From: Antedon mediterranea
Lineage: Eukaryota > Echinodermata > Crinoidea > Comatulida > Antedonidae
Direction of reading: 5' to 3'
DNA: 64,000 nt
NCBI RefSeq assembly: GCF_964355755.1
Contig: NC_092674.1
Location: 21,106,001 to 21,170,000, forward strand
Shown here: one piece after another, positions 3,391-19,776 of the stretch
Numbering within the stretch: the stretch's first letter is position 1
Layout: each line of letters begins with the position of its first letter
Made by a program: the position numbers and the translations under genes
Notes under the pieces: model-generated
What the model was told of the DNA's origin: nothing
What the model saw: the letters and a program-made list of their open reading frames with translations, nothing else
The model's database searches: none

Positions 3391-6300
3391 ATGGTGTCTA
3401 ACGTCAACCACAAACATTCTACTGAAAAATCAACTTTGGCTGTTGGTGGAGGAATAAGTATTGGTGTTCTGTTAGTTTTGATATTGACAACGGGGACACT
3501 GATTATGAGAACTATTATTTTCCGACAAGAAATCAGTGAGCAGAAACATACACTGGAAACCATCTCAGAGCGTCTGGCTGATCTAGAAAACAACGGGGTA
3601 AAACCCGAAATTGCACAGGTATTATTACGTTATGTTCACATGACAGAGAGTTATCTTAACATATTATTTTTTTGTACTAAGCCGACGTATGGATTTGACC
3701 AATAATCAGCGAATAATAGGCCTACTCTAGTAGTAGGCCTACATACTTTATCTGTATCTTTCCTATTATTTTACCACAAAACTAACTTTACTACTAGTTC
3801 TTAAGATTTTGTTTTGTTTGTTTTTTTTAATATTTTTTATCAAAGTATCGGTCAACAGCCTTGTGAGTTTATAATAACCAGCTTGAAAATCAAGAAAGCC
3901 CAGCGGCATGCCTACTAAAAAAAAACTGCATTTAATGATAAATCCAAATGTAACCGGCCTTTCATGTATCGTCCGATGATGGAACTTCCGTTCGAATGTA
4001 TATTATACCTTTATGTTATATAGGCCTACACGATACAGACTATATATATATTATGTAAAGTGGAAAAAAAACATATTATTAATTAGACAATGTATTGATA
4101 TTGTGACGTCGATGCATCAATGGTGAGAACAATGACGTTTACGAACATTAATTATGACGACAACGCAGCGATTTGGACAATTAAGACATTGCATAACCAC
4201 AAAAACAGTACGAAAATGATGAACAACAGACGACGACCTTTGTGAATATAAATGACGACGAACATGACGAAACCGGATAGGCCTACTGATGAAAACCGTA
4301 ATGACGATTATGACGAAAATAAGGATACGAAAGCAAGACAACGATAACACACAAATTACGATAGGATTAAAATTATTATTAGGCCCAAAGGCATATAACT
4401 TCACAATGTTAATAGTGATTACGTCTATTGTGCCTTGATAATATTTTATTAAATTTCAAATCACAGACATCAGTTGGCCGCAAATTGCTAGCTGTTGATG
4501 GACAACAGTGTACCTGTCCTCCAGGTAAGTTTTAACAGAGTATGTACACATAACAAGTATGGCGTTTTCTTCCTGTTTTGTAATTGTTTTACCTTTTGTA
4601 TTGTTTGTTACATATATTTATATATTTGTAAAACGAGCATTGTATTTCCGAAATCATTAATAAAAGATAATTTGAATTTGAAGTAATTGAACATTGTGTA
4701 TATGTACTGTATATCTTGCTATCCTGCTATCTTGTTTTCAAATCAAAATCATGCAGGCGATGTGTTAATAGTTCGGGGAAAAGTCTCAATGGTCTCGTTG
4801 CAAAATTGATTAACAACTTGACAATTAACATTATATATTTTTTATCATTTTAGGTCCAAAAGGAAATCAAGGTGAAAGAGGTGAACGAGGACGGAGCGGT
4901 AGGACAGGCAAGGCAGGTAAGTTGTAACACCTGCTGTGTCTTTGATTTAATTACCGCTTGATGTTTACGGAAATGGATTAGGTAAAATTGGCTTCTTATG
5001 TGCAGGATTTATCTATTCAGTGGTATACACCATTGCCGATAGCTTATACCTAGTCTATCAAATTAGAAAATCCGGGCTCTAATTTGGTAATCAAAAGTAG
5101 ATGGAAATAGGCTATCAATGCCAAGATTTTCTGAATTTTAAATTAAATAACTTCAGTTAGAAATAAATTCGAAGAAATCAATAAAATATTAATAAATCTG
5201 TTAGAGTAGAACTAGAAGAACCATAATTAGTAGGTTGTAGATATCAAAACGTGTTATTTAAAGCTACAATATCAATATTATTATGACCAAAATAAATTTA
5301 CAGTTTTATTTGAGGAAAGAAAACTTGGAAGCTTCAGCATATTCTCACACTTGTTTTTCTTATTCTAACATAGGAAATGTTGGGACTCCTGGTCCCCCAG
5401 GACTAGATGGCAGTAAGGGGGATAAGGGTTTGAAGGGAGATAAGGGAGACACGGGGCAAAGAGGTGAAGTAGGTAAGGCTGAGCCTATTTTAATATACAT
5501 TTTGATTTCTAACTTTCCGCACAACAAGCAAATTAACCTGCTGCGGTGGTAGTAGGCCTACGGGACGACGTCAAACACATCAATTTTCTCCGAACAAGGA
5601 GCCGTTCTAATGCCATTGCCATCATCATACATAATTAAGATCGTCCCATGAACACAGAATATAGCATATGCCTAAACGATGGAAATGTAGAAGAATAACT
5701 CATACACATCTAAAATATGATAAATATTGTTATTACTATAGGCTTGGAAGGTGCTCACGGAGCAAAAGGTGAACTTGGAGAGAGGGGTCAGCCAGGAAGA
5801 CAGGGCGTCAAGGGTTCACGGGGAATCAAAGGAAACCCTGGTCCACTTGGCCCAAATGGACCACCAGGTCCTAAAGGTAACATTGGAAGAACAGGACCAC
5901 CTGGTCCACAGGGTAAGTCGAATTACAATAGGCCTACTGTTTAATCGTTTAATCATCGACCATAAATATAATTTTCAAATAAACCTCCAACGAATGGTAG
6001 AATTAACTAAAATAGTTTCTTATTATCGGACCATAAAGAGACAAATTTAAATCCAGGATTTACGGGGTAGTTTGATACGAATTTATACCAATATTATTTT
6101 ATTAAAAAAATAATAATAATAATACTTCTACATCGTGGTAAATTTTGATGAGAGTCTACACAATACCAAACAATAGTATCAACGTTATTAAGGAGACAAC
6201 TTCGGAACGCCAAAGTGGCCCTTAATAATGATGTCCTCTGAATAGGGGTTGGACGTGTGTAAAACTCAGATTTCCCCATGGTATATTCCTTAATTGGGGT

Positions 6301-8155
6301 CTCCCAAATGAGAGGTATATACTGTAGGCCTACATTTATGATTATCCATGTGTGTTGTCTTTAGGTATGACAGGAAACTTAACGTTACTTGAGGAAGAGG
6401 GCCGGTTGATATCTGGAGGTACGCTGAGAGCAATACATTTACGCGGGTCTGGGGCAGAAAATAAACTAACGGGAAAAACAAATCTTGGTGAGTAGGCCTA
6501 TAACAAGAATACGTACTATTTTAAAATCCAATATTGTTTGGTAGAGCTCTCCTATAAATATTTAAACAACCACGATAGTGATCACTAGGCCTGATTTTCG
6601 TTTTCTAAGTGTTTTTAGTTTAAAAGGTCATGTCTTTTTCTGAAATGTTGCAGTTTGTTGTGGTACCGACGATTAATATTTTGGCAATACATTACTTTAA
6701 TAAATAAAAACAACTGTTTGTAATAGGTGCATCTGGTTGCATGAAGAAATGGGAAATTGCGACGGATACAGGTGGTTTTAAACTTCAATCTAATGGAAAC
6801 GTTACTGTAATTGAGAAGGGCCAGTACTTCATATATAGTACGGTACGTAATATGTTAATCTTTGGCAGTTTGGTGCATGTCACTTCTAAATGTTAATATG
6901 ATATTCGATATCAGGTCCTTTACCTGGCAGTCACGAGTTACGATCCGCTTGTGTATTTGTGTATTACATTTATTTACAATACGGAACAAGTTCTTTTGCG
7001 TCCCATCCATAGAACGAGGTAATACACGTAATGCAACTTGATTAGAAATGTCACAATGTAATGTATTTACGTCTAAATATCGCTCTCATGTTTGCTTAAT
7101 GGTGAGTAAAAGACGATGGTGGCAAAACGTTCGGGTATCCAACCTAAACAATCTTGATTCCGATCCACTACGTCAACAACCAACCGGTCAAATAAATAGT
7201 GTTGAACTTTCTACCTATTATTACTGTGAAATTGGAAATGCATTATTTGTAATTGACCAATCAATTTCGTTCCACTGACAGATATCTTAACATGAATCAG
7301 CAAAATAACTTGATACTGATAACTTCATAGTCGATTTCCATATTATTTGTCTCTATAATTTAATATAAAAGATACGGTAGGATAAATAAATATGTTTGAT
7401 TGATATGGTTTTTATAATTTTTTTTATTATATATATATTTCAAATTCAATACTACCTACCTTGTTTAAGTAGTACCTTATTAATTTATATTTTGTAATTG
7501 TTTATGAAAGATGAAAGAAAGAAAATAAATGTTTATGTTGAATTGAATTGAAATGTTTACAATTGGTTTTTGGAGTTTTCAGCAGCCCCAAATCGTTATT
7601 ATCGTTCACGCAAAGGACTAGGTTAGCATAAATTAACGATTTCAAATGTAACCGTCAAAGTTGTCCTCAAGAACGTGAAACATAATTTACATAGAAGGTT
7701 AGCTTACACTAGTAATATCAATTTAGTCGATAATATTTATAGCTCTATAGTTACAAGGAAACTTTAAAAAAATTATAAATAATCGAACTAGCCTATACAT
7801 TTTCGAGGTAAGATTTGCTTTGCCTTCAAACTTATGAACTGTAAATCGTTACTTTTTCTTTCTGAAATTAATTGCTTGCAAAAGAAATTTAGTACAAAAT
7901 GTTATTCTTCTTTTTTAGATATTATTCTACGATAAAAAAGCGTTCTTCGCAGCTGACACCAGGATAAATGGAGTTCCTTACATAAGGTGCAGTGGGCAAC
8001 GCGCTTCTGCAGCTCAGAAGTTTGGTTCTTGCACAGCGAATGGAGTTGCTAATCTGGAAGATGGAGATGAAGTCGGAATCAAATCTGTATACCCGTACAG
8101 TTTTGTCGATATTAGGAATGATGCTAGCTATTTCGGGCTGATTAAACTCAACTAA
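3391..8155 (+). CDS. EDA: EDA-like TNF-superfamily ligand with collagenous stalk
   Basis: Eight exons: 3391-3618, 4467-4524, 4854-4916, 5374-5472, 5742-5912, 6365-6487, 6727-6842, 7919-8155; 364 codons, all phases consistent (human EDA is 391). Residues 1-15 are a short cytoplasmic tail, 16-39 a hydrophobic signal anchor (type II topology), 44-67 a probable coiled coil. From Gly96 come 38 uninterrupted Gly-X-Y triplets. Residues about 212-364 are a TNF homology domain with the GQYFIYS strand, two cysteines in an IRC...GSC arrangement like the EDA disulfide, a [13 protein letters not shown] strand pair and the closing YFGLIKLN. By family, such proteins trimerise, are shed and signal through TNF receptors (EDAR type). 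I see no RXXR-RR furin cluster between membrane and collagen, unlike vertebrate EDA. Orthology to EDA rather than to a sister TNF ligand is inferred from domain order. Confidence 0.9.
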
Positions 8156-8351: not shown

Positions 8352-9108
8352 TAGTAAACGTTGCCCGAAAACATGGTGATAATTTAGAAAGGTTCTTTGC
8401 TAATTATGCGTTTGGCAGACGTTTAAATATAGTTGTTAAGGTTTAATTTGTAATAAGTTTGTGATGGACAAATGTGATTTGCTATACAAATACTATAATA
8501 CAAGTAGTTTAAGTGCTTCAAGGAACAGTATTTAATATATTGATTATATGCTATAGTAAACTAATAATCTCTAATAATAAACATGTGTACATAACTGTCA
8601 ATAAACCATGATTAGATATCTCAATTTTAGTACTGAATTTTCAAAATACAACTTGAATACTGCTTTATTGCATATACTATTGATAACATAATTCACATTG
8701 TAAACAAAAAGTAAATTTAACTACGAAAATATAATAAACGTAGTAAATAGTAAACGTTGCCCGAAAACATGGTGATAGTTTAGAAAGGTTCTTTGCTAAT
8801 TATGCGTTTGGCAAACGTTTAAATATAGTTGTTAAGGTTTTATTTGTAATACGTTTGTGATGGACAAATGTGATTTGCTATACAATACTATAACACAAGT
8901 AGTTTAAGTGCTTCAAGGAACAGTATTTAATATATTGATTATATGCTATAGTAAACTAATAATCTCTAATAATAAACATGTGTACATAACTGTCAATAAA
9001 CCATGATTAGATATCTCAATTTTAGTACTGAATTTTCAAAATACAACTTGAATACTGCTCTATTGCATATACTATTGATAACATAATTCACATTGTAAAC
9101 AAAAAGTT
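8352..9108. repeat. 396-bp tandem duplication in the EDA-like 3' flank
   Basis: A segment starting TAGTAAACGTTGCCCGAAAA at 8352 recurs at 8748 with few changes and stays matched to about 9105. The sequence around the poly(A) site (8172-8240, TAAACATTGCCTGAAAAA) resembles the start of the unit, so an older third copy probably exists there. Confidence 0.9.
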
Positions 9109-9235
9109 AATAAAATATAATGTTCATTTAAAATATTAAGTCTGTATGTCAAACCATCAGTTCTCAATGTTAGTACTGTTTTTTCAAACACAACTTCATA
9201 GTAAAGTGTTCCCTTTATATGGGTGTTTAAAGGTG

Positions 9236-9317
9236 TATTCTAGGGGTGTTCTAGAGAGTATTCTAGGGGTGTTCTAGAGAGTATTCTAGGGGTGTTCTAG
9301 AGAGTATTCTAGGGGTT
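9236..9317. repeat. 23-bp minisatellite
   Basis: About 3.5 near-perfect copies of TATTCTAGGGGTGTTCTAGA plus GAG. Confidence 0.92.
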
Positions 9318-9394
9318 TTATAGATTCTAGGGTACTTTAAGGTAGTAAACTTTTTCCAAACATAATTTTGAAGTTGACATCGCTTTATACATAT

Positions 9395-16037: not shown

Positions 16038-16353
16038 AGCGACCGGGTTGACTTTTTACCTTGTTTAAACCGGCCTGAATTTCTGCGTCCCAGGTACAAT
16101 TCGGGTTACTTAATTCTGGATCAACTTGATTTGAGTTGTTATTTGTCCTAGACTCCTACTGTAAATTCAAACTATACTTTCAAATGATGTTTTTATTTAC
16201 AATATAAATTTGTACACAATTTTAATTTCAGTGATTTTTTTTATGAATGGTAGGTAATTTCTTTTTTTCAGTGACTTCTTGAGAGTGTACCAATACCCAG
16301 CGGTGGACAGCCGGGGCAAGTCAGGCTTACAGTACTTATGCCATCTGTGAATA

Positions 16354-19776
<3,423 letters not shown>

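Follow-up and report, generated by a model that had tools for sequence, protein, structure and literature searches.

A predicted gene in a 64,000-nucleotide stretch of the genome of the crinoid Antedon mediterranea (hereafter the window; contig NC_092674.1, positions 21,106,001 to 21,170,000) probably codes for a TNF ligand that belongs to the EDA/BAFF/APRIL/TWEAK group, has type II membrane topology and bears a collagen stalk, the length of which is most simply read as an old, ordinary state of the gene, the single collagen exon of human EDA being a shorter version of it.

Eight exons on the forward strand (window 3391-8155; Table 1), predicted from the DNA and separated by GT-AG introns, form a single open frame of 364 amino acids. 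Hydropathy reaches its maximum (2.27) at residues 21-39, encoded by exon 1; this is the only hydrophobic helix ahead of the TNF domain, and the protein is predicted to have a type II membrane topology, with a putative start codon and a putative juxtamembrane coiled coil in exon 1. The Pfam domains for collagen (E = 2.5e-19) and TNF (PF00229, residues 262-363; E = 7.3e-9, 36.1 bits compared to a cut-off of 23) are found in the same protein, and two cysteines of exon 8 align with a conserved pair of EDA. The CTC motif that precedes the collagen occupies residues 91-93. A search of NCBIfam with the protein returned no match.

Table 1. Predicted exons of the window gene (window positions) and candidate exons of the second EDA-like gene (positions on C5).
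Feature	Position	Strand	Length and phase	Content
Window gene, exon 1	3391..3618	+		ATG open frame with GT donor; short cytoplasmic tail, transmembrane helix at about residues 16-39, juxtamembrane segment
Window gene, exon 2	4467..4524	+		Linker ending in CTCPPG; CxC motif immediately N-terminal to the triple helix
Window gene, exon 3	4854..4916	+	63 nt, phase 1-1	Collagen, 7 triplets
Window gene, exon 4	5374..5472	+	99 nt, phase 1-1	Collagen, 11 triplets
Window gene, exon 5	5742..5912	+	171 nt, phase 1-1	Collagen, 19 triplets
Window gene, exon 6	6365..6487	+		Final two triplets (GMT GNL), then linker, then start of TNF domain
Window gene, exon 7	6727..6842	+	phase 1 in, phase 0 out	TNF domain to ...YFIYST
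Window gene, exon 8	7919..8155	+		C-terminal half of TNF domain; stop codon at 8153-8155
Second gene, shared TNF exon	C5:24883406-24883530		125 nt, phase 0 out	Ends in ...YFIYSQ
Second gene, candidate last exon a	C5:24884976-24885218			Own acceptor and stop
Second gene, candidate last exon b	C5:24885492-24885725			Own acceptor and stop
Second gene, micro-exon candidates	C5:24881457, 24881632, 24882429		30-33 nt each, phase 1-1	

Elsewhere in the window, a unit of about 1.28 kb is duplicated in tandem at positions 1-2310, with long stretches at 99-100% identity. Each copy contains a tRNA-like sequence, apparently split by an intron, which was not reported by ARAGORN with its intron search off. 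Just downstream of the EDA-like gene a second unit, of about 395 bp, is duplicated in tandem (8352-9111; copies 97-99% identical), with a 23-bp tandem repeat beyond it (9215-9329). A long open frame for C2H2 zinc fingers, which are numerous and nearly identical, occupies positions 16351-19552 and is interrupted by stop codons near its 3' end.

The Gly-X-Y run of the window protein extends without a break over 39 triplets (residues 96-212), 37 of them encoded by exons 3-5 (7+11+19) and two by exon 6. The first-pass annotation had described 38 uninterrupted triplets over four exons; the continuity and the four exons (3-6) were borne out, but the count is one higher. It also held that each intron splits a Gly codon in phase 1, and this is true of all four introns that touch the run. 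As 200 rounds of mononucleotide shuffling of the window gave runs of 4 triplets at most, and given the Pfam Collagen match, the run is not a product of chance. No further Gly-X-Y run of at least 3 triplets was hidden in the introns of the gene. The collagen region of human EDA carries a single interruption and its repeats are Pro-rich and mostly uncharged, whereas the stalk of the window protein is charged (19 K/R, 10 D/E and 14 Pro among 78 X and Y positions). With 19 triplets (PMC8468066, PMC7010634) against 39, the human region is about half as long, as had been claimed; it spans residues 180-235, all within exon 4, with the TNF domain in exons 6-8 (PMC8468066). Exon 5 of the window gene, also of 19 triplets, is likely the counterpart of human exon 4, a putative one-to-one correspondence. 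That the stalk is longer follows from the sequence, provided that all collagen exons are used in one mRNA; it may also be stiffer.

Among TNF ligands with solved structures in the PDB, and taking single-domain entries, the TNF domain matched EDA best (EDA-A2, 1RJ8: 3.2e-10, 43.5 bits; EDA-A1: 2.5e-9), with weaker matches to BAFF (7.5e-6) and TWEAK (1.6e-5). Entry 4ZCH, nominally the top match, was set aside because it fuses three TNF domains, and adding up their scores inflates the total. The introns of the domain agree with those of EDA: that between exons 6 and 7 is in phase 1 and lies at most one residue from EDA Asp265, where human EDA exon 6 ends (c.793), and that between exons 7 and 8 is in phase 0 after YFIYST, which aligns with YFIYSQ306 of EDA, directly before Val307-Glu308. 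These two residues separate EDA-A1 from EDA-A2; the window gene is A2-like in length, the shorter of the two, and its sequence shows no second donor 6 nt beyond exon 7 from which an EDA-A1-like form could be made. Vertebrate EDA carries a furin motif (R-X-K/R-R) between membrane and collagen; none was found in the window protein or in introns 1 and 2 of its gene, the only similar strings in the protein being RGER and RSGR, both within the collagen run. The absence of this motif counts against identity with EDA, as does a TNF domain further from EDA than that of a second gene in the genome (43.5 vs 59 bits, both against EDA-A2).

The latter gene was found in a genome search with the window TNF domain, as a second EDA-like locus at C5:24.88 Mb (within C5:24.866-24.886 Mb). 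Its shared TNF exon is followed by two candidate last exons (Table 1), tandem and intact, which are 56% identical (43/77) with saturated synonymous sites and a dN of about 0.41, and each of which matches EDA best by single domain; neither AATAAA nor ATTAAA occurs between them. From the DNA, this looks like a gene with two alternative C-terminal TNF halves, predicted to be picked at the junction of the vertebrate EDA A1/A2 receptor switch; the alternative readings are that one of the two is a relic exon, or that it belongs to an unseen second gene. The shared exon is preceded by three tandem micro-exon candidates that resemble one another (DDEKNPDMASV, DPMNPKMRIV, DRPINEDMVEV) and correspond to the first part of the TNF domain. 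Two open frames lie upstream on the same strand, at about C5:24.866-24.874 Mb (L030/L029): one encodes a type II-like membrane helix, the other a K/R-rich block and a furin-like KIKR; judging from their order, both would belong to this gene. Thus, the second gene shares with the window gene a TNF domain of the same group and the same phase-1 and phase-0 introns, and differs from it in its two candidate last exons, in the furin-like site and basic block upstream, and in having no collagen (no run of at least 4 triplets in the 30 kb read). As it has the EDA intron positions too, these are not specific to a collagen-bearing EDA. Other TNF loci on C5, read in 10 kb pieces, likewise contained no Gly-X-Y run of at least 4 triplets, and no other gene joining collagen to TNF was detected in the genome.

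The stalk had been taken as a product of growth by exon duplication. The specific form of this proposal, in which this lineage duplicated a lone ancestral collagen exon and so lengthened its stalk, could explain why the window gene has three collagen exons, all symmetrical (phase 1-1), against the one of human EDA. However, the triplet-register likeness of exon pairs 3/4, 3/5 and 4/5 was no better than that of shuffled triplet orders (P = 0.23, 0.62 and 0.89), the internal periodicity of exon 5 was not significant (0.51), the introns flanking exons 3-5 showed no sequence likeness (their long matches were overlapping flanks only), and the exons are of unequal size. A non-fibrillar collagen locus of the same genome (L015) also has phase-1 exons that split Gly codons, so that phase 1 alone does not point to recent growth; in a fibrillar collagen (L016) the exons are of the classical kind, in phase 0 and 54, 108 and 162 nt long. 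In its predicted exons, then, the stalk has the phase pattern of ordinary non-fibrillar collagen exons, and exons 3-5 are ordinary symmetrical collagen cassettes. Growth by duplication was not sustained by these comparisons and we regard lineage-specific growth as improbable; any duplication among the collagen exons, if old, would have been erased without trace. The same exons allow for a stalk of variable length. Because exons 3, 4 and 5 are all symmetrical and multiples of 9 nt, the skipping of any of them preserves both the frame and the Gly-X-Y register, every subset is translatable, and the animal could produce ligands of differing reach. This property is, however, common to all collagen exons of such type, and the splice sites look strong and constitutive; we regard a variable stalk as improbable too.

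Slightly better placed, yet still unlikely in our view, is an independent gain, in which a collagen cassette joined a TNF ligand by exon shuffling apart from vertebrate EDA and the architecture is convergent. Symmetrical phase 1-1 exons shuffle readily, the charge of the stalk is unlike that of the human EDA repeats, and it is the second gene, with no collagen within 30 kb, that has the closer EDA-like TNF domain and the furin-like site upstream. Against this, the collagen occupies the position that it has in EDA with respect to the TNF domain and ends in a phase-1 intron that is followed by EDA-compatible introns, and collagen adjoining a TNF domain is, to our knowledge, otherwise a hallmark of EDA. 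We favor the reading of the long stalk as an old state: the window gene looks like an ordinary EDA-family member with a longer stalk.

Compared to vertebrate EDA, the window gene shares the type II membrane layout with collagen directly before the TNF domain and has matching intron phases, both near Asp265 and where A1 and A2 diverge. It differs in having 39 triplets spread over three main exons rather than 19 in one, a CxC before the helix and a charged stalk, and in lacking both the furin motif and the two-residue A1 insert. The C1q-domain collagens, present as tandem arrays on C3 and C5, also combine a collagen stem with a trimeric jelly-roll head of related fold, but they are secreted, their stalk lies in one open exon, and the head is C1q-like and not TNF. 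Gene clusters in which the collagen occupies a single open exon (about 260-440 codons) were observed at 3.38-4.08 Mb, 28.5 Mb and 35.1 Mb of C3 and at 25.6 Mb of C5; the one cluster gene that was read (L011) combines a collagen stem with a C1q-like end.

By analogy with EDA, three chains of the window protein would trimerise through the C-terminal TNF domain, and the cysteines of the CxC motif just ahead of the helix may cross-link them. At 0.86 nm per collagen triplet the EDA stalk measures about 16 nm, and a triple helix of 39 triplets would form a rod of about 33 nm that keeps the TNF head off the membrane; this head would engage a TNF receptor on adjacent cells. As the protein has no furin site, the ligand more likely acts tethered. 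A pair of TNF-receptor exons was found at C5:29.68 Mb (L021, C5:29679072 region; CGPG...CGYGDGGSVICDLC); it resembles the EDAR/XEDAR/TROY group by eye, and comparison with PDB entries gave no decisive assignment. In EDA, the collagen domain is held to bring TNF trimers together in higher-order assemblies (PMC8468066). Human EDA that has lost four triplets in frame causes milder disease (PMC6892193), so stalk length appears to be tolerated within limits, and by itself it would matter little.

In the sea urchin, EDA-like ligands account for two of four TNF genes, according to the passage of PMC6001812 that cites Hibino 2006. Like A. mediterranea, an echinoderm with two EDA-like TNF genes is thus already on record in that passage, and such a pair is not new. 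Within the literature collection searched, no paper gave collagen counts in invertebrate EDA-like genes. We tentatively consider it possible that in A. mediterranea the hallmarks of EDA are split between the two genes, the window gene carrying the long stalk without a furin site, for contact signalling by a membrane-tethered ligand, and the second gene carrying the furin-like site and basic block without collagen and making two ligands through its duplicated last exons at the A1/A2 junction. A TNF ligand with a collagen stalk outside the vertebrates helps to date the gain of collagen by EDA, and the two EDA-like genes taken together bear on the question of which features of EDA are old: the stalk, the release by furin, or the receptor switch at exons 7/8.
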